DNA from: Austwickia chelonae NBRC 105200
GTDB taxonomy: Bacteria; Actinomycetota; Actinomycetes; Actinomycetales; Dermatophilaceae
Reading direction: 5' to 3'
Length of the DNA stretch: 64,000 nt
NCBI RefSeq assembly: GCF_000298175.1
Contig: NZ_BAGZ01000001.1
Location: 124,001-188,000, forward strand
Below the pieces are notes generated by a model, which saw only the letters and a list, made by a program, of their open reading frames with translations, ran no database searches and was not told the origin of the DNA. This document shows, in pieces, positions 55,189 to 63,215 of this stretch; positions within the stretch are counted from its first letter, which is position 1; every line of letters starts with the position of its first letter. A program made the translations under genes and the position numbers.

Positions 55189-55252
55189 TGTGAGGCCCAT
55201 GGTTCACACGTTCAAGATGTGGCGAGCTTGCGTCTCATGACGTGGGACGTCA
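55189..55252. promoter_or_regulatory. Candidate operators between leuC and ndgR
   Basis: Two inverted repeats: TGTGA-N10-TCACA (55189-55208) and TGACGTgggACGTCA (55238-55252), the second only 10 bp before the ndgR start. NdgR-type IclR regulators control leuCD in Streptomyces and also their own gene, so binding here is plausible. Confidence 0.4.
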
Positions 55253-55262
55253 CACTGAGTGC

Positions 55263-56018
55263 ATGGAAAGTTCTAGTGGGGTCGGTGTCCTGGACAAGGC
55301 CGCAACCGTTCTCGGCGCCCTGGAAGCGGGACCGTCGACTCTCGCACAGCTCGTTGCCATCACCGGATTGGCTCGCCCCACCGCCCATCGCCTGGCGGTG
55401 GCTCTCGAACACCATCGGCTGGTATCCCGCGACATGCAAGGCAGATTCATCCTCGGCCCGCGCCTGGCAGAACTTGCCTCAGCCGCCGGCGAAGACCGGC
55501 TCCTGGCCGCTGCAGGCGCCGTTCTGGGAGCACTCCGGGACCACACTCACGAATCCGCGCAACTCTTCCGACGCCAAGGGGACATGCGCATCTGTGTCGC
55601 AGCCGCCGAACGCCCCATGGGACTACGCGACTCCATCCCGGTAGGAGCAACCTTGTCGATGCTCGCCGGATCCGCAGCGCAGGTCCTCCTCGCCTGGGAA
55701 GAACCGGACCGACTCCACCGCGGTCTCCAGGGCGCGGAATTCACCGCCACCACCCTCTCCGGCGTTCGACGCCGCGGATGGGCACAGAGCGTCGGTGAAC
55801 GTGAGCCGGGAGTAGCCTCGGTGTCCGCACCCGTCCGCAATCCCGCCGGGCGGGTCATCGCCGCCGTCTCGATCTCCGGACCGATCGAACGCATCTCCCG
55901 ACAGCCCGGGCGCCTCCACGCCGCGACCGTGGTCGCCGGAGCCAACAAGTTGACCGAGGTCCTCGCCCGGGCGCATGCCCAGCAGCAGGCCGCACAGGAG
56001 TCCGCACACAAGCACTGA
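55263..56018 (+). CDS. ndgR: IclR family regulator NdgR
   Basis: A 251-residue transcription factor: winged HTH (about residues 8-65, STLAQLVAITGLARPTAHRL) and the IclR effector domain (VPVGATLSMLAGSAAQVLLA-like IPVGATLSMLAGSAAQ). NdgR in Streptomyces controls branched-chain amino acid genes, including leuCD, and divergence from leuC supports the same role here. ATG at 55263. A strong hairpin follows at 56021-56067. Confidence 0.93.
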   Translation: MESSSGVGVLDKAATVLGALEAGPSTLAQLVAITGLARPTAHRLAVALEHHRLVSRDMQGRFILGPRLAELASAAGEDRLLAAAGAVLGALRDHTHESAQLFRRQGDMRICVAAAERPMGLRDSIPVGATLSMLAGSAAQVLLAWEEPDRLHRGLQGAEFTATTLSGVRRRGWAQSVGEREPGVASVSAPVRNPAGRVIAAVSISGPIERISRQPGRLHAATVVAGANKLTEVLARAHAQQQAAQESAHKH

Positions 56019-56020
56019 CC

Positions 56021-56067
56021 ATCCGTGGGGGCCCCTCACCGAGAAGAGAAGATGGGCCCCCACGGAT
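56021..56067 (+). terminator. Terminator after ndgR
   Basis: Perfect 14-bp stem atccgtgggggccc/gggcccccacggat, 19-nt loop, 2 bp after the ndgR stop, then tcttcc. It also marks the border of the molybdenum hydroxylase cluster. Confidence 0.8.
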
Positions 56068-56138: not shown

Positions 56139-57143
56139 TCAGAGTCGCTCCAGAAGCACCCGCACGCTCCCTCCACAGATCATGTCCAGTTCGTTCCCAC
56201 GCCGACCGGACAGGTCGTAATCAGCCACCGCGAGAGCATCGTCCCCCTCCGCAAGCAGAGCCTGCGCCCGACGGACCACCTCCAGTTCCACCGCTCCCCC
56301 GCCGACCGATCCGGCCACCGGCCCCTGAATGCCCACCACCATGCGCGCGCCGGTACCCCGCGGAGTCGACCCGGCGTCACCGATCACCGTGGCCAGAACG
56401 GCCGGCAATTCCGGTGTCCGCGCCAACCCACGGATCGTGTCCGCCACCTCGGCATCGACGACCTGCCCCTGGCATTCGGCGCGGACCTGCACCAGCTCCG
56501 CGCAGATCGAGACCGCAATCTCCCCCGGATCCGGTCCACCCAGATGGACACCGATCGGTGAACGCAGCTCACGGGTCAGTTCCGGAGACAACCCCGCCTC
56601 GACCAGTTCCCGACGGACCAATGCCGCCTTGCGTCGGGAACCGATCATGCCGACGTACTGATGCGGACGCGTCAGACAGAGCAGCGCACACTCACGGTCA
56701 CTGCGATGCCCCGGCGTGACGACCACGAAATAGCTGTTGGCATGCTCCGACAGGGCACGCAAGGCCACACCGTAGTCATCAACGACGATCTGATCCGCCC
56801 CGGTCAACCGGTCGGACCTGGCCAGGCCGGGACGGTCGTCGATCACCACGGTATGAAAACCGATCACCGAAGAGATCTGCGCGACAGCGCGGCCGACATG
56901 GCCGGCACCCAGGATCACCAGCCGGGGCGTGCCCCACAGCTCCTCCGCGAAATAACCGCCCGAACCGGTCTCCCGACAGGTGGCGCCGAAAGGTCTTCGA
57001 GGAGTGCCGGTCAGGCTGTCCCGATCACCGTCCCACGGATCGCACCGCCCGGCTCGTGGCCCACTGGTCCAGTGCAAACGGGCGTAGACGCCCTGAGCAT
57101 CGACCTGACCCAGCAGCTCGACATAATCCACTCGCCGCATCAT
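56139..57143 (-). CDS. xdhC: XdhC-family protein with Rossmann domain before CoxI domain
   Basis: A maturation factor for molybdenum hydroxylases (cofactor sulphuration or selenation and insertion). In the 334 residues the order is: N-terminal unit (1-70), Rossmann domain with VILGAGHVGRAVAQ (76-89) and PGHRSDRECALL, YVGMIGSRRKAALV and IGVHLGGPDPGEIAVSICAE, then the CoxI-type domain GDAGSTPRGTGARMVVG and GSVGGGAVELEVV at the C terminus. Classic XdhC has the CoxI domain first. This permuted form accompanies selenium-dependent hydroxylase clusters in Clostridia. Start ATG 57143 overlaps the yqeC stop by 4 nt. Last gene of the cluster. Confidence 0.85.
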   Translation of the reverse strand: MMRRVDYVELLGQVDAQGVYARLHWTSGPRAGRCDPWDGDRDSLTGTPRRPFGATCRETGSGGYFAEELWGTPRLVILGAGHVGRAVAQISSVIGFHTVVIDDRPGLARSDRLTGADQIVVDDYGVALRALSEHANSYFVVVTPGHRSDRECALLCLTRPHQYVGMIGSRRKAALVRRELVEAGLSPELTRELRSPIGVHLGGPDPGEIAVSICAELVQVRAECQGQVVDAEVADTIRGLARTPELPAVLATVIGDAGSTPRGTGARMVVGIQGPVAGSVGGGAVELEVVRRAQALLAEGDDALAVADYDLSGRRGNELDMICGGSVRVLLERL

Positions 57144-58000
57144 CGATCTCCCTGCCACGCCGGCGGAATCGGAAGCCGGTCCTCCCGACCGGTGCCATTC
57201 TCCCCCCGGCAGCACGCCACCTGACGAGAAGGGTCCACTCCGACACAGATCACCTGGTGACCGTCCAACAGACCGATCAGTGCGCGAATGTCCTCGTCGA
57301 ACACTCCACCGTCGACGTGGGTCAGCACGACCGAGACCTGGCCGGCCCAACCCCACCGACGGGCCGGATCCAGATAACCCTGCTGCAGCAGCATCGCGAC
57401 TGCTCCGGCATCGAGATCGGCCCCGACCCCAGAACCGATGCCCAGGATCTCCCGGGCACGCTCCGAGCGAAAACACACCTGCTCCAACGGACGACACAAT
57501 GCATCGACGCTCGCCACGACCAGGAGAAGATCCACCGCCGGAGGAACCACCGGCTCGTGCGCCGCCGGCACTTTGAACGGCAGGCCGCGGGCACCGTCCG
57601 CCTCGACCAAGACGACATCGAAGGCACTGCGCAATCGATCGATCCCGTCGCCGGGGAAGGCCGAGATCTTGCCGTCCCCGCACGGCTGCCCGGCAACCAA
57701 CAAGCCCGGTTCATCCCTGCGGGCCAAGGCCTCCTCCACGTCCAGAGCCGCGCCCCGTTCCAGCCACAACCGGGTGGTCGTGGTCAGAACGGCGCTCAAC
57801 CCGAGAACCGCGCATTCCTGCCCGACAGCCCGCAAAAGGGTGGTCTTACCGCCTGCGCCCACCGCAGCCAGAACCACCCTTCTCCGGCAGCCCAGGACAC
57901 ATGTTTCGAGCAGCTCCGTGACGCCCAAGGCCGAGAGCAGCCCCGGCCCCGCCCGTCCAGGGCCTTCCCAGACCACGGGCCAGACCGGGCGGTCGGTCAT
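57140..58000 (-). CDS. yqeC: YqeC-type selenium cofactor biosynthesis protein
   Basis: A 286-residue P-loop protein of the YqeC family, a marker of the selenium-dependent molybdenum hydroxylase system with an unknown biochemical step. The P-loop is AVGAGGKTTLL (about residues 46-56), followed by TTTTRLWLERG and VVLVEADGARGLPFKVPAAH, EPVVPPAVDLLLVVASVDAL, then the RPLEQVCFR segment; these are family hallmarks. ATG at 58000 overlaps the yqeB stop; its 3' end overlaps xdhC. Confidence 0.85.
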   Translation of the reverse strand: MTDRPVWPVVWEGPGRAGPGLLSALGVTELLETCVLGCRRRVVLAAVGAGGKTTLLRAVGQECAVLGLSAVLTTTTRLWLERGAALDVEEALARRDEPGLLVAGQPCGDGKISAFPGDGIDRLRSAFDVVLVEADGARGLPFKVPAAHEPVVPPAVDLLLVVASVDALCRPLEQVCFRSERAREILGIGSGVGADLDAGAVAMLLQQGYLDPARRWGWAGQVSVVLTHVDGGVFDEDIRALIGLLDGHQVICVGVDPSRQVACCRGENGTGREDRLPIPPAWQGDR

Positions 58001-58950
58001 CGCCCCGGCTCCAGGACGTCGATCCCAGAACCCGCGCCCCTCCGACATCGGCCCGACAACCCTTGGAGCACCGCGTCCAGCGCGCCTCCCCCCACGGCTC
58101 TGGCCTTGTCGGAGATCGTGTCGCAACATGCGACCATCGCAGGCCGCGGGTCGACATCGGCGATCTTGAGACCCCGCGAGACCACCGTCTCCTCAGGAAT
58201 CATGCCGCGAACGACCCCCGACAGCGGAGAGAGCACCTCGGAAGAGGTTTCCGCACCTTCCAGAACGCAGAGCGCCTCCCCTGCACGCACGACAGCGCCG
58301 ATATCCCGCAGGACCCGGACCCGGCCGGCTTCAGGAGCCCTGACGACCCGGTCGGCACCGTGACCGGCGATCGTCCCGGGGACCCCGGTGTTGGCAAGAG
58401 CCGCCCCGAGGGAGATCACGCGCCCCAGATCGTGTCCACGCATCGTCTCCACGACGTAGTCGACGTCCTCTCCGGCAACGAAACCCGGACCGCACCCGAC
58501 GGTGACATCCCCCATGCCACGGTGGGTACCGACATTCCGTTTCGCGAGCATCGCGTCGACCACCGCCACCGGACGAGCCCTGCGGACCAGTTCTGCCTCG
58601 GAGTCAACGACCACAGGGATCCGGTATTCACCCGGCCGGCCGGACCTTCGCTGCTCGGCCAGGATCTGCCGAGCCTGCTCGAGACCGAGGGCACGAACCC
58701 CGACGAGGTCCTCGACCCGCCAGCTGCCCTGACGGACCGCGGTGCACAAAGACGCCCGCCACCGGACTGCCATCGGTCGGGCGAGATCCAGGGCGATGAC
58801 GTCGAAACCGGCGTGAGCACAGCGCTGGACGACCCCGGTGGCGATGTCCCCAGCCCCCCGGACGACGATCAGCGGAGTCGAACCCGGACACCTACCGAGG
58901 TGTTCCAGGGGGCCGGAGGGCTCCTGAAGGCCGGGAGCGCCCGGAGTCAT
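57997..58950 (-). CDS. yqeB: YqeB-type (EF2563) selenium-dependent molybdenum hydroxylase accessory protein
   Basis: A 317-residue protein of the EF2563/YqeB family: LIVVRGAGDIATGVVQRCAH (Rossmann-like, 27-46), PMAVRWRASLCTAVRQG, VDAMLAKRNVGTHRGMGDVT, GPGFVAGEDVDYVVETMRGH and the C-terminal barrel-like GLKIADVDPR and CDTISDKARAVGGGAL. The family is genomically linked with selD and Se-dependent xanthine dehydrogenase. In E. coli YqeB also contains an XdhC part; here that part is the separate downstream gene. Translational coupling by 4-nt overlaps on both sides. Confidence 0.85.
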   Translation of the reverse strand: MTPGAPGLQEPSGPLEHLGRCPGSTPLIVVRGAGDIATGVVQRCAHAGFDVIALDLARPMAVRWRASLCTAVRQGSWRVEDLVGVRALGLEQARQILAEQRRSGRPGEYRIPVVVDSEAELVRRARPVAVVDAMLAKRNVGTHRGMGDVTVGCGPGFVAGEDVDYVVETMRGHDLGRVISLGAALANTGVPGTIAGHGADRVVRAPEAGRVRVLRDIGAVVRAGEALCVLEGAETSSEVLSPLSGVVRGMIPEETVVSRGLKIADVDPRPAMVACCDTISDKARAVGGGALDAVLQGLSGRCRRGAGSGIDVLEPGR

Positions 58951-61628
58951 CGGCGCCGCACCGGGCGATAGAAGGTGTCCTCCAACGGGAGCGCGAGCCG
59001 GAAGAGACCGTCCTTCTTGAAGTAGGCATTCTGCAGGGCTGGCGCACCCAGGCAGCAGGTGATCTCGCCGATGCCCTTGGCCCCGTAGGCATAGGTCGGA
59101 TCAGCACGGTTCACGAAGATCGCGCGGACCGGAGGCATCTGATTGGCCTTGACCAATCCGAGCTGGGCCAGCTTGACCTGTGGGATCCCGTCCTCACACC
59201 GGAAATACTCAGTCACCCCGTACCCGATGGCCATGGCGACGCCACCGATCACCTGCCCCTCGCAGGCCACCGGGTTGATCACCCGGCCGGCGTCATGAGC
59301 CGCGACCACCTGGACGATCTCACCCTTGGTGTCGATCACGAAGATCTGCGTCGCGAAACCGTAGGAGATGTGGCTGACCGGGTTCGCCTTCGTCGAGCCG
59401 ATCGGATCGGTCTCGAAGTCGAACTCTCCCTCGTAGAGCTTCCCTTCGAGGTCAGCCAGGGCCAGCCCGGAATCCAGATCCCGTTTGAGTGCCTGCGCCG
59501 CTTCACGTGCTGCCTGACCGGTGAAGACCGTCTGACGGGAAGCAGTCGTGGTGCCCGCGTCCGGCGAATAGCTGGTGTCCGGGGCGTCCACCACGATGTG
59601 GCGTCTCTCCAGCCCCGTGGTCTCCGCGACCATCTGAAGGATGACCGTGGTGATGCCCTGTCCGATCCCGGCCGCGGACGAACGGGCGTGGACCACTCCG
59701 TCGATGACCTCGAGGTTGCATCGCCCCGGGTCCTTCAACCCGACGCCGACTCCGGCATTCTTCATCGCGCAGGCGATACCCACGTGGAGCTCCGGATCGG
59801 CTTCATACCGTTCGAAGTCGTCCCGGACGGCCTCCAAGGTCTCGACGAGGGCGGTGTCCGCGCCGACGATCTGCCCGTTCGGCAGCGCCTGCCCCGGGCG
59901 GACGGCATTGCGATGACGGATCTCCCAACCGGAGAGACCGACCTGGCGGGCGAGGTCGTTGACGAGACATTCCACCGCCATCGCCGACTGGGTGACCCCG
60001 AAACCACGGAAGGCCCCTGCCGGTGGATTGTTGGTGTACACGGCATCACCGACCACGCTCACATTGGCGTAGTGATAGGGCCCGGAGGCATGGGTACATG
60101 CTCGCTGCAGCACCGGGCCACCCAAGGAGGCATAGGCTCCCGTGTCCGAGACGATCCGGGCCTGCATCGCCTGCAGAATGCCCTGGTCGTCGCAGCCGAG
60201 CTTCATCGTGATCTTCATGGCATGGCGTTTCGGGTGATAGTTCAAGCTGTCGGTCCGACTGAACTTCACCTTGACCGGCCGCCCGGTCAGATAGGCGCAC
60301 AACGCTGCCTGGTGCTGGACCGACATGTCTTCCTTGCCGCCGAAACCGCCACCGACCAGGGCCGAACGGATCCTGACCTTCTCCAGGGGCAGGCCGAGGT
60401 ACTCACTGACCTCGTGGTATTCGTCGTAGATTCCCTGACCTGCGGTGATCACCATGATCCCCTCGCCGTCGGGGATCCCGATGGCCGCCTCGGTCTCCAT
60501 GAAAGCGTGTTCTTGCGGAGGCAGATCGAAGGTCGCCTCGGCGACATACGAGGAGGCTGCGAAACCGGCAGCGATGTCGCCCCGGGAGATCTCTTCGTGG
60601 GCACAGATATTGCCCTCGGGAACGACGAAGGAACCGAATCGGGTGAAACCTTCCCCGTGGATCTGCGGTGCACCCTCCGCCATGGCTGCTTCCGGACTGG
60701 TCAAGGGCTCGAGTACCTCGTACTCGACCTCGACCGCAGCGGCAGCGGATTCGGCCTGGGAGCGGGTCTGCGCCACGACCATCGCCAGGGTGTCCCCGAT
60801 CGCCTTGGTCGTCTCGCCCACGGCGATCATGCCCGGCCAGTCCTTGTAGAGATGACCCAGGTAGCGTTCTCCGGGGATGTCCTCGGCGGTGAAGATCCCG
60901 AGAACTCCTGGCATAGCGCACGCCGCGCCGGTGTCGATGGACAGGATCCGCGCGCGCGGGTGGGCGGTGAAGACGTGTCGGCCGTGGACCATACCGGGGA
61001 TCTCGATGTCGTCGACGTACTGCCCTTCGCCCAGCGCTTTCTCCACGGCGTCGATGCGCAGCACGTCTTCACCGACACCTGCGTTCTGCCCAGGGGCGGG
61101 GATCTCCCGTCCTTCCCGTAGCAGATCTGCGGCGAGGAGCACGCCGTCGACGATCTGCTGGTAGCCGGTGCACCGGCACATATTGGTGCGCAGGGCGTGG
61201 CGGACCTCGTCGGCGGTCGGGGCGGGGTTCGCATCGATCAGGGATTTCGCGGAGACGACCATCCCGGGTACGCAGAAGCCGCACTGGACCGAGCCCGCGG
61301 TACCGAAGGCGTGTCCGTAGACCGCTTTCTCCCGCTCGCTGAGCCCTTCGACCGTGGTGATCCGTTTGCCGGCGAGTCGTTTGACCCGTTGGGTGCAGGC
61401 TCGGACCGCCTTGCCTTCGACGAGGATCATGCAGGTACCGCAGGATCCCTGGTTGCATCCGTCCTTCACGGAGATCAGACGGAGATCGTCCCGGAGCAGG
61501 TCGAGCAGTTCGGTGTCCTCGGAGACCTGATGGGCTTCTCCGTTGATGAACAGGGTGTGGACCGCGGTAGCGCCGTCGTCGGGTGTGCGGGTCCGGGGGA
61601 CTCGTCGCCGGGTGTTCTCCGTGGTCAT
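58947..61628 (-). CDS. xdh: Selenium-dependent xanthine dehydrogenase-type molybdenum hydroxylase
   Basis: One 893-residue chain combines two parts. Residues about 22-175 hold two 2Fe-2S domains: plant-type C58, C63, C66, C78 and helical-bundle C116, C119, C151, C153. Residues about 185-890 are the molybdopterin-binding large domain with VGGGFGGKEDMS, GAFRGFGVTQ and the catalytic glutamate in GAKGIGEIT. There is no FAD domain, so electrons pass to another acceptor. This fused architecture is that of Se-dependent xanthine dehydrogenases. First gene of the coupled cluster; weak ribosome site GGCAGGCG upstream of ATG. Confidence 0.88.
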   Translation of the reverse strand: MTTENTRRRVPRTRTPDDGATAVHTLFINGEAHQVSEDTELLDLLRDDLRLISVKDGCNQGSCGTCMILVEGKAVRACTQRVKRLAGKRITTVEGLSEREKAVYGHAFGTAGSVQCGFCVPGMVVSAKSLIDANPAPTADEVRHALRTNMCRCTGYQQIVDGVLLAADLLREGREIPAPGQNAGVGEDVLRIDAVEKALGEGQYVDDIEIPGMVHGRHVFTAHPRARILSIDTGAACAMPGVLGIFTAEDIPGERYLGHLYKDWPGMIAVGETTKAIGDTLAMVVAQTRSQAESAAAAVEVEYEVLEPLTSPEAAMAEGAPQIHGEGFTRFGSFVVPEGNICAHEEISRGDIAAGFAASSYVAEATFDLPPQEHAFMETEAAIGIPDGEGIMVITAGQGIYDEYHEVSEYLGLPLEKVRIRSALVGGGFGGKEDMSVQHQAALCAYLTGRPVKVKFSRTDSLNYHPKRHAMKITMKLGCDDQGILQAMQARIVSDTGAYASLGGPVLQRACTHASGPYHYANVSVVGDAVYTNNPPAGAFRGFGVTQSAMAVECLVNDLARQVGLSGWEIRHRNAVRPGQALPNGQIVGADTALVETLEAVRDDFERYEADPELHVGIACAMKNAGVGVGLKDPGRCNLEVIDGVVHARSSAAGIGQGITTVILQMVAETTGLERRHIVVDAPDTSYSPDAGTTTASRQTVFTGQAAREAAQALKRDLDSGLALADLEGKLYEGEFDFETDPIGSTKANPVSHISYGFATQIFVIDTKGEIVQVVAAHDAGRVINPVACEGQVIGGVAMAIGYGVTEYFRCEDGIPQVKLAQLGLVKANQMPPVRAIFVNRADPTYAYGAKGIGEITCCLGAPALQNAYFKKDGLFRLALPLEDTFYRPVRRR

Positions 61629-61721
61629 GTCGCCTGCCCGTTCTGGATCGCGTCCGGCGACCAGCGCGCTTTCCCGGTGCAGCCGCTTGTGACGGCCCGA
61701 TCACAGCCCACCGCTCACCAG

Positions 61722-61750
61722 AGTATGGTCAACTTTGTCCAACGTCAGAA
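61722..61750 (-). promoter_or_regulatory. Promoter and operator-like palindrome upstream of xdh
   Basis: Minus strand TTCTGA (61750-61745), 17-bp spacer, CATACT (61727-61722). The spacer contains the imperfect palindrome TGGTCAActTTGTCCA (61726-61741), one mismatch between its 7-bp arms, a place where a repressor would block polymerase. The leader to xdh would be about 85 nt. Confidence 0.45.
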
Positions 61751-61789
61751 TAACTCGATCTGCTTCGTCGGACAGCAGGGTTGACGCAA

Positions 61790-61826
61790 GGGGCGCCCGT
61801 CGTGGTGAACCCACGACGGGCGCCCC
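61790..61826 (-). terminator. Strong hairpin between membrane-protein gene and xdh
   Basis: Perfect 16-bp stem ggggcgcccgtcgtgg with its complement and a 5-nt loop, 25 bp past the stop at 61851. No T-run, but the stem is long and GC-rich. Confidence 0.75.
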
Positions 61827-61850: not shown

Positions 61851-63215
61851 TCAGACCAGTTCGCTCCGATCGTCGCCCGGCTCCCCGTACAGTTCCTGCT
61901 CGGCCAGCAGCCCCTGATAGGCGTCCCGGATCGCCAGATTGACCTCGTTCTCGGCCAGGACCGGGTCGAGGAAGGACTTCCGATAGGTCTCGTCGCTGTT
62001 CGACGAGGCCGCGAAGGACAATCCGCTGAAGCAGGCCAGGAGGAAGCTCACCTTGAAGTGCACCGAGCTGAACGGGAGCTTGAAACCAGCCACCATCATC
62101 GGCTCGGGCACCGAGGAGATCCAGGTCTTGGCCACGGCGTCGGTGATCGCCATCTGACCGAAGAAGGTGAAGAAGACCCCCATCAACATGGTGAAGAGGA
62201 ACACCTGGATCACCTGCGCAGCGATCGCCACCAACTGAAGGTTGACCCGCTCACTGACCCGCAGCGGAGGACGCAGACGCGGCATGGAGACGGAGGCGAA
62301 GGGAGTACCCCGCAACAACGAACGCATCCGCTGCTCGTTCTCCACGGACTCCGCATAGGAGAACTCGGCCTCGTTCCGACTTTCGTGCTTGTGGAACATC
62401 GTGTGCATCTCGTCGAGCGCGGTCACCACGACGACCAGCAGGGCCAGGACCAGCAGAACCATCCCGACACCGAAGGTCCGCCCGTAGTCGATCCCCGCGG
62501 CGACCTGCCAGATCTCGGCATTGAAGAAGAAGAAGAGCACCACGACCAGGAAGACCGGGAGGACCCGGGCGATCATCGCGCCCAGAGCGGTGGCCTGGCT
62601 CACCGAACGCTTCAACGACCAGACCAGCACATTGCCCACCCCGATATAGGTCAGGAAGAGCAGGATCACCAGCAGGGAGAACTGCCACAGCAAGCTGATG
62701 AAGAAGCTGTCCCCGTCGATCTCCTTGCCCATCACGGGAGGCAGCAGAAGGTGGATCAATCCGATGATCACAGCGAGAAGTTTGCTGCCCGAGTTCGGCA
62801 GGGCCCGCAACAACCAGCCGATCCCCAGACCGACCGGGAGCGCGAGGATCGGGCCGCCCAAGACGAGGAATCCACTCAGGATGAAGGCCACCTCGTCTTC
62901 CTCACGAACGAGCCCGTCCTCCGTCTCCTGGACGCCGTCCACCACGGAGGCAGCGAGCAACCAGAGGACGTTGATCACCGTCATGGCGGAGAGCAGTGCG
63001 GAAACCCTGCGCAACAACGCCCGACTCCGTGAGCGGCGAGTGAGTACCTGAGGGAGCCCCCGCGCCCTGATCCAGGCTTCACAGGCATCCATCTGGGCAT
63101 CTGCCATCGCGGCATTCCGTCCTTCCGTCATTCCTCGCATATCGCCGATACGTTCGGCGGCAGCCTCCCCCACGAGCCTCAGGACGGCCGAGACGGCGTA
63201 GTCATCAGGCCCCAC
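61851..63215 (-). CDS. Polytopic membrane protein of unknown function
   Basis: Not recognised. A 454-residue protein with a soluble N-terminal part of about 65 residues, seven or eight membrane helices (e.g. MTVINVLWLLAASVVDG, LVILLFLTYIGVGNVLVWSL, VLPVFLVVVLFFFFNAEIW, FLFTMLMGVFFTFFGQMAI), a large cytoplasmic loop with charged residues near EMHTMFHKHESRNEAEF, and an acidic C terminus. No transporter motif could be assigned. GTG start at 63215 has no clear ribosome site, so the N terminus is uncertain. It is bounded by hairpins on both sides and transcribed alone. Confidence 0.7.
   Translation of the reverse strand: MGPDDYAVSAVLRLVGEAAAERIGDMRGMTEGRNAAMADAQMDACEAWIRARGLPQVLTRRSRSRALLRRVSALLSAMTVINVLWLLAASVVDGVQETEDGLVREEDEVAFILSGFLVLGGPILALPVGLGIGWLLRALPNSGSKLLAVIIGLIHLLLPPVMGKEIDGDSFFISLLWQFSLLVILLFLTYIGVGNVLVWSLKRSVSQATALGAMIARVLPVFLVVVLFFFFNAEIWQVAAGIDYGRTFGVGMVLLVLALLVVVVTALDEMHTMFHKHESRNEAEFSYAESVENEQRMRSLLRGTPFASVSMPRLRPPLRVSERVNLQLVAIAAQVIQVFLFTMLMGVFFTFFGQMAITDAVAKTWISSVPEPMMVAGFKLPFSSVHFKVSFLLACFSGLSFAASSNSDETYRKSFLDPVLAENEVNLAIRDAYQGLLAEQELYGEPGDDRSELV

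Follow-up and report, generated by a model that had tools for sequence, protein, structure and literature searches.

In Enterococcus faecalis, one contiguous cluster (EF2563-EF2582; copy on NZ_CP142821.1) joins an enzyme annotated as a selenium-dependent xanthine dehydrogenase (XDH) with YqeB, YqeC, an XdhC of the usual domain order, selD, mocA, sclA and yedF, and its SelD has been reported as an orphan (PMC2276186). The reductive uric-acid pathway of Escherichia coli, Clostridioides difficile and Clostridium sporogenes includes YgfK, SsnA, HyuA, YgeW, YgeY and carbamate kinase, with conversion of urate to yanthine by XdhD and YgfM in E. coli and by XdhAC in C. sporogenes (PMC12507026, PMC12990295). 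We analyzed a 64,000-nucleotide stretch of the genome of Austwickia chelonae NBRC 105200, here called the window (contig NZ_BAGZ01000001.1, positions 124,001 to 188,000), which carries four genes, xdh, yqeB, yqeC and xdhC, related to those of the E. faecalis cluster. From sequence comparison, they are likely to form a cassette, gained by horizontal transfer, for a selenium-dependent molybdenum hydroxylase that would be a urate reductase.

When aligned with its E. faecalis counterpart, the window Xdh is 51% identical over 875 columns, YqeB 47% and YqeC 25% over 117 columns, while XdhC and SelD are common to both systems; in E. faecalis, uric-acid genes and a pyruvate:ferredoxin oxidoreductase lie close by, as in A. 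chelonae. In contrast to the contiguous E. faecalis cluster, the four window genes stand alone, with selD and a MocA-like gene on other contigs, and the domain order of XdhC is swapped. A Rossmann-first XdhC beside yqeB is also observed in 11 of 80 named loci, among them the clostridial loci L069, L083, L091 and L115, but L069 and L083 have the order yqeC-yqeB-xdhC instead of xdh-yqeB-yqeC-xdhC, and the nearby molybdenum enzymes differ. A. chelonae has the same genes of the reductive pathway as the three organisms named above; its enzyme is of the fused type without the flavin adenine dinucleotide (FAD) subunit YgfM, and its pathway genes are found in three places (contigs C33, C29 and C17). 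The cassette is made up of the following genes.

58947-61628, minus strand: xdh, 893 amino acids, fused [2Fe-2S] and molybdenum hydroxylase of the XdhAC type
57997-58950, minus strand: yqeB, 317 amino acids, selenium-cofactor accessory protein (TIGR03309)
57140-58000, minus strand: yqeC, 286 amino acids, P-loop protein, selenium-cofactor accessory protein (TIGR03172)
56139-57143, minus strand: xdhC with swapped domain order (Rossmann then CoxI), 334 amino acids (PF13478 and PF02625)

A first-pass annotation of the window had described these genes as a selenium-dependent molybdenum hydroxylase cluster joined by ATGA overlaps, and both points are supported. The coordinates place an ATGA at all three joints of this operon-like run, and the three products score above the NCBIfam cut-offs of the profiles proposed as a check: Xdh with TIGR03311 (1194.8 bits, cut-off 830.45), YqeB with TIGR03309 (278.8 bits, cut-off 220) and YqeC with TIGR03172 (128.9 bits, cut-off 73.05) as well as PF19842 (119.7, cut-off 27.6). 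Such scores rule out chance open frames as the origin of the four genes. Xdh is composed of Fer2, Fer2_2, Ald_Xan_dh_C, MoCoBD_1 and MoCoBD_2 domains, and no FAD domain was found in it by the domain profile scan. A selD gene, sought in the rest of the genome, is present on another contig (C26:173040-173957; 374.3 bits, cut-off 125); a missing selD together with YqeB and YqeC below cut-off, named beforehand as the contrary outcome, is thus not what the genome contains.

We compared the genome under study (G000) with three genomes of the same genus (G010, G011 and G012) and with a family set of 186 genomes; completeness is 100% for G011 and G012, 96% for G182, 88% for G151 and 89% for G101. The selD of G000 is an open frame carrying GGCACK, which we take to be the catalytic motif. 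As expected, no selA was found in the genome at 1e-30, and no ybbB at 1e-5 in the four genus members, G000 included; no tRNA-Sec was found around selD, the only place searched. Of the family genomes, 119 have a selD over its cut-off, 119 have such a selA, and 116 have the two together. Only G000, G010 and G101 have selD without selA, the reverse is seen in G011, G128 and G174, and YqeB is over the cut-off in two of the 186, G000 and G010. Within a search that covered selA, ybbB and the tRNA-Sec surroundings of selD, these patterns suggest that no known use of selenium other than the window cassette is left in the genome. The selD genes of G000 and G010 are 89% identical to each other and are flanked by mutAB and a permease, whereas that of G012 lies with selA, selB and tRNA-Sec; retention of selD at its ancestral place is not supported, since these neighbors differ. 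A stretch of G011 (L197:6084-10167) carries relatives of selA and selB, 50% and 46% identical to those of G012, with no tRNA found in the stretch and no selD in the genome at 1e-40, a pattern indicating either a decaying selenocysteine system or an assembly gap.

The genes of the reductive uric-acid pathway are assembled on contig C29, except for HyuA, which is on C17 (TIGR02033, 490.8 bits, cut-off 393.25). C29 holds YgeW (TIGR03316, 713.5, cut-off 500), YgeY (TIGR03526, 595.3, cut-off 321.5), a carbamate kinase (NF009007, 316, cut-off 266, but TIGR00746, 315.1, under 358.25), a pyridoxal-phosphate (PLP) lyase, SsnA (TIGR03314, 508.9, cut-off 455.5), YgfK (TIGR03315, 1223.7, cut-off 835.3), a PbuX-type permease (451.3, cut-off 414.15), a MocA-like protein and an XdhC of the usual order. 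Upstream of ygeW is a pyruvate:ferredoxin oxidoreductase 47% identical over 1190 columns to that of the E. faecalis cluster, and the PLP lyase, at the YgeX position, is related to the lyase of the G011 cluster (615 bits). SsnA, reported earlier from Actinomycetota (PMC12507026), is over its cut-off in 7 of the 186 family genomes, all four genus members included. In G011 and G012 the cluster has the order ygfK-ssnA-hyuA-xdh. In G000 and G010, xdh and hyuA are missing from it, and the pathway would have a hole without the window Xdh. The latter is 48% identical to the Xdh of G011 and G012; the HyuA of G000 and G010, encoded elsewhere, share 40-42% identity with their G011 and G012 counterparts, as compared with 72% between the latter two.

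Enzymes of the window type (at least 750 bits to the window protein, with the window and G010 left out) are accompanied by at least two uric-acid genes in 14 of 15 loci, the exception being Kribbibacterium (L105), as against 7 of 21 loci of other molybdenum hydroxylases (Fisher p 0.0004, with limits set after the table had been seen and rows that are not independent, 7 of them being Brachyspira). By homology with the window protein, the genome has only two molybdenum hydroxylases, the same two that match TIGR03311: the cassette enzyme and an ordinary FAD-bearing XDH about 7 kb beyond the cassette (L132:6152-10047, G000 C33), whose XdhL scores 916.6 with TIGR02965 (cut-off 849.5) and whose XdhS scores 444.2 with TIGR02963, below 467. 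Xanthine oxidation would already be covered by this ordinary XDH. The window enzyme is most likely a urate reductase that would fill the pathway gap, and not a purine oxidase; the oxidation of purines proposed in the first-pass annotation appears less likely than uric acid reduction, given the reductive uric-acid genes in the genome. The ordinary XDH adjoins a fumarylacetoacetate-hydrolase-like gene and gltX, and all four genus members have its molybdenum subunit. A second XdhC, of the usual domain order (L134:6763-8463), is encoded near ygfK, back to back with the MocA-like gene, and may serve the ordinary XDH. The search for ygfJ/mocA gave this MocA-like protein, on a contig other than that of the cassette; it was rejected as a true YgfJ, a protein that often accompanies the selenium-cofactor trait but does not define it, being far below the TIGR03310 cut-off (71.7 against 186.45 bits).

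The cassette is present in G010 in the same gene order and absent from the corresponding sites of G011, where about 170 bp separate tRNA-Glu from the IclR-family gene, and of G012, where about 320 bp separate the IclR-family gene from a relative of orf454, the gene to the right of the cassette. In the tree, the window Xdh groups with that of G010 alone (100/100), and a separate clade, with support of at least 100/99, unites the Xdh of G011, G012, G151 and G182. A single family Xdh clade was rejected by the approximately unbiased (AU) test (p-AU 0.0011, and 0.0079 with E. faecalis added), which was made after a first tree had been seen and with a program warning of long branches. Since the sites in G011 and G012 are free of the cassette and its Xdh falls outside their clade, the cassette looks horizontally gained, and gain from outside is the simplest reading of the comparison. 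In a tree made by a quick method, the window YqeB forms a long branch whose neighbors, from Bacillota and Spirochaetota, are weakly supported; a cassette common with Coriobacteria-like members of the phylum was rejected, as this YqeB stands outside the Collinsella/Kribbibacterium group. No mobile-element ends were seen by eye, no program search being made, and the cassette edges show no usable similarity to the G011 and G012 sites. Compositional foreignness was ruled out: the G+C content at third codon positions is 0.74-0.81 in the four genes, inside the range of four neighbors (0.68-0.86).

TIGR03311 proteins are over the cut-off in 6 of 7 genomes tested (G000, G010, G011, G012, G151 and G182). 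Among them, a search for YqeB at 1e-3 gave nothing in G011, G012 and G182 and only a 22.6-bit fragment in G151, and no selD was found at 1e-40 in G011, G151 or G182. Membership of TIGR03311 alone, judged from these sequences, is no proof of selenium dependence, and enzymes of the G011/G012 type would be either sulfur-based or dependent on some novel selenium route. In the alignment of 17 Xdh rows, columns 85, 204, 573 and 601 are fixed differently in yqeB-linked enzymes, with K at 573 in E. faecalis; column 665 is Q in the yqeB-linked rows, except for T in Kribbibacterium, and H in the five others. We make no functional claim for these differences, which may reflect mere descent. The family member G180, a fragmented assembly, contains many pieces of molybdenum hydroxylases, with 19 TIGR03311 matches at 1e-20.

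These data are compatible with the following steps. SelD would make selenophosphate, XdhC would hold the molybdenum cofactor and YqeB would swap the sulfur ligand of molybdenum for selenium, while YqeC, a putative P-loop nucleoside triphosphatase (NTPase) resembling the MinD/nitrogenase Fe protein class, would gate the hand-over in an NTP-driven manner. The finished enzyme would reduce uric acid to 2,8-dioxopurine (yanthine), probably with electrons from reduced ferredoxin, as it has no FAD domain; YgfK, SsnA, HyuA, YgeW, YgeY, carbamate kinase and the lyase would then degrade the ring, with pyruvate, ammonia and carbamoyl phosphate as products. By this account, the cassette would have replaced the other XdhAC of the family, sited inside the uric-acid cluster in relatives.

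Several observations weigh against this scheme. Relatives without yqeB (G011, G012, G151 and G182) have TIGR03311 proteins over the cut-off, and the two yqeB genomes share one genus and thus amount to one event. G101 has selD without selA, yet no yqeB over the cut-off, and seven actinobacteria are listed with an orphan selD and no known selenium trait (PMC5029168 Table 1), so that selD without selA is weak evidence by itself. Some organisms that lack SelD also have homologues of YqeB and YqeC (PMC2432076), and deletion of yqeC in C. difficile is reported to have no phenotype (PMC11448449). The MocA-like protein is far from a TIGR03310 member and its gene lies beside pbuX and ygfK, HyuA is encoded apart from the other uric-acid genes, and for the lyase at the YgeX position the only matches are to general models of dehydratases and threonine synthase. 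We infer both the substrate and the electron donor from gene company.

Among the other explanations, a selenium-dependent XDH converting xanthine to urate would agree with the name of the TIGR03311 family, with the report of E. faecalis EF2570 as a selenium-dependent XDH (PMC11448449) and with the presence of a PbuX-type xanthine permease, but it seems unlikely in a genome that already has an FAD-bearing XDH about 7 kb away, one with a molybdenum subunit kept in all four genus members, and for an enzyme that lacks an FAD domain and whose type sits at uric-acid loci in 14 of 15 cases. Relatives with XdhAC over the cut-off and neither yqeB nor selD would fit an ordinary sulfur ligand, with YqeB, YqeC and XdhC as generic maturation factors and selD as a relic of a lost selenocysteine system; selA could have been lost recently and selD not yet, and orphan selD genes have been listed for other actinobacteria (PMC5029168 Table 1). 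We nevertheless regard this as quite improbable: TIGR03309 is reported solely from selD-positive genomes (PMC2276186), both yqeB genomes keep a selD (89% identical) with selA gone from both, and yqeB and selD mutants of C. difficile behave alike (PMC11448449). The chance that the cassette serves another heterocycle pathway (for a nicotinate-like compound or a pyrimidine) and that the uric-acid pathway uses another enzyme is very slight, with only two molybdenum hydroxylases in the genome by homology and no nicotinate gene in the cassette. What speaks for it is that nicotinate dehydrogenase (3hrd_A), which presumably bears selenium, is among the closest solved structures (264.5 bits).

With a urate reductase as the preferred assignment, the genus may, as a tentative proposal, contain two states of this enzyme: one free of the selenium genes (G011 and G012) and a horizontally gained selenium form (G000 and G010), which would have displaced the former and kept selD in use after the loss of selenocysteine. 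The G011/G012 XdhAC is of the same NCBI family, at 48% identity, and has the same pathway genes, but it lacks yqeB, belongs to the other Xdh clade and, in G011, also lacks selD. Genomes of one genus that have the same enzyme type with and without selenium genes let one ask what YqeB, YqeC and a dedicated XdhC add, and the G000 cassette is a small four-gene set apart from other purine genes. The annotation "selenium-dependent xanthine dehydrogenase" alone does not mean that selenium is used; if the proposal is true, selenium would be an optional, transferable upgrade in this enzyme family, and the TIGR03311 name would be a misnomer for some members.

YqeB shares 38-48% identity with the YqeB proteins of 67 named loci, and its model has a predicted local distance difference test (pLDDT) score of 91. 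The start of the model alternates strands and helices and reads as Rossmann-like. Residues 199-267 resemble a biotin carrier domain (Z 11.5 and rmsd 1.3 over 69 residues to 5gu9; TMt 0.84 to 5gu8); the hairpin has GAET in the window, and the modifiable lysine is not present. In 68 YqeB sequences, no column from 230 to 244 has more than 7 lysines, and four of these columns are gapped in 62. There are 34 invariant columns in the same 68 sequences, none of them cysteine, which makes a cysteine relay in YqeB unlikely. Beyond the carrier-like domain, no whole-chain fold relative was found, the rest of the chain having been barely tested. In YqeC (model pLDDT 83), G48, G50, G51, K52, E133, D135, G136, K143 and P150 are invariant in 45 sequences. 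Its model weakly resembles P-loop NTPases of the ParA/MinD/Fe-protein/SRP (SIMIBI) type, with 7 Foldseek matches at E<=0.001 (ParA, MinD-like FlhG, Fe proteins and relatives, SRP54; TMq 0.33-0.40). Loss of yqeB has consequences in C. difficile, and that of yqeC has no obvious phenotype (PMC11448449).

In XdhC, the PF13478 Rossmann domain (residues 75-217, 123.8 bits) precedes the PF02625 CoxI domain (residues 246-303, 58.8 bits), and its alignment with E. faecalis XdhC is crosswise, residues 37-223 pairing with 155-335 and residues 248-334 with 18-102. Its equivalog scores are below cut-off (TIGR02964, 132.2 against 161.6; NF045664, 242.7 against 350). The swapped order is found in 12 of 69 XdhC-like frames, namely in G010 and in 11 named loci, whose titles all point to Bacillota; none was found on viral contigs, and no description of it was met in the literature within the limits of the terms searched. 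Of 58 named YqeB loci for which 3 kb of sequence is available on either side, 37 have an XdhC frame inside this distance (in 14 of them it is the YqeB frame itself) and 40 have YqeC. A YqeB-XdhC fusion was noted in 2008 (PMC2276186). At L213 and L215 (genomes of L041 and L044), XdhC is fused to the C-terminus of YqeB, the reverse of the XdhC-YqeB arrangement of Gammaproteobacteria (L076, L078 and L094).

In a draw of 396 genomes of the phylum, 22 have a YqeB match at 1e-20 and 16 are over the cut-off; the 21 positive genomes other than G000 are all outside its class, the number of class members among the 396 not being given. Collinsella aerofaciens, of the same phylum, was listed for the selenium-cofactor trait by Zhang et al. 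in 2008 (PMC2432076 Table 1). The trait is already known in the phylum, and what is new is the family, as far as searched. YqeB is present in 21 of 72,556 records of a plasmid collection, all below 60% identity; three of these, named Escherichia coli and 4.8-4.9 Mb long, look like whole chromosomes. YqeB-like proteins of other Actinomycetota score 193-219 bits, below the TIGR03309 cut-off (L048, L049, L050, L051, G284 and G287); those of L048-L051 carry the start motif RGxGDVGSA, and in three a 6-phosphogluconate-dehydrogenase-like frame is seen nearby by eye.

The surroundings of the cassette comprise the following features.

61629-61805, minus strand: xdh upstream region, likely promoter region
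61790-61826, minus strand: 16-bp hairpin in the gap between orf454 and xdh, folding z -4.86
56021-56067: 14-bp hairpin in the gap where xdhC and the IclR/ndgR gene converge, folding z -3.27
55242-56018, plus strand: IclR-family regulator (PF01614, PF09339), ndgR-like from its position next to leuCD; left flank, outside the system
61851-63215, minus strand: orf454, no assigned family; right flank, outside the system

The flanking terminators proposed earlier are plausible: strong hairpins stand on both sides, with 0 of 200 shuffles as good for either (folding z -3.3 left, -4.9 right), but no T-run was seen after either and neither is listed by the consensus terminator scan. The insertion site reported earlier, with ndgR on one side and a tRNA/glnS locus on the other, is correct, except that an extra gene, orf454, sits between xdh and tRNA-Glu. 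No family is over the cut-off for orf454 in the NCBIfam and Pfam profile scans; it has relatives in G010 (67%) and G012 (43%), and none was found in the corresponding G011 stretch. No sigma-70 consensus is listed in 61629-61805, a region 77.5% identical to its G010 counterpart (blastn, 178 columns, E 5.4e-35). The IclR-family flank gene is 99.6% identical in G010 and 98% in G011.

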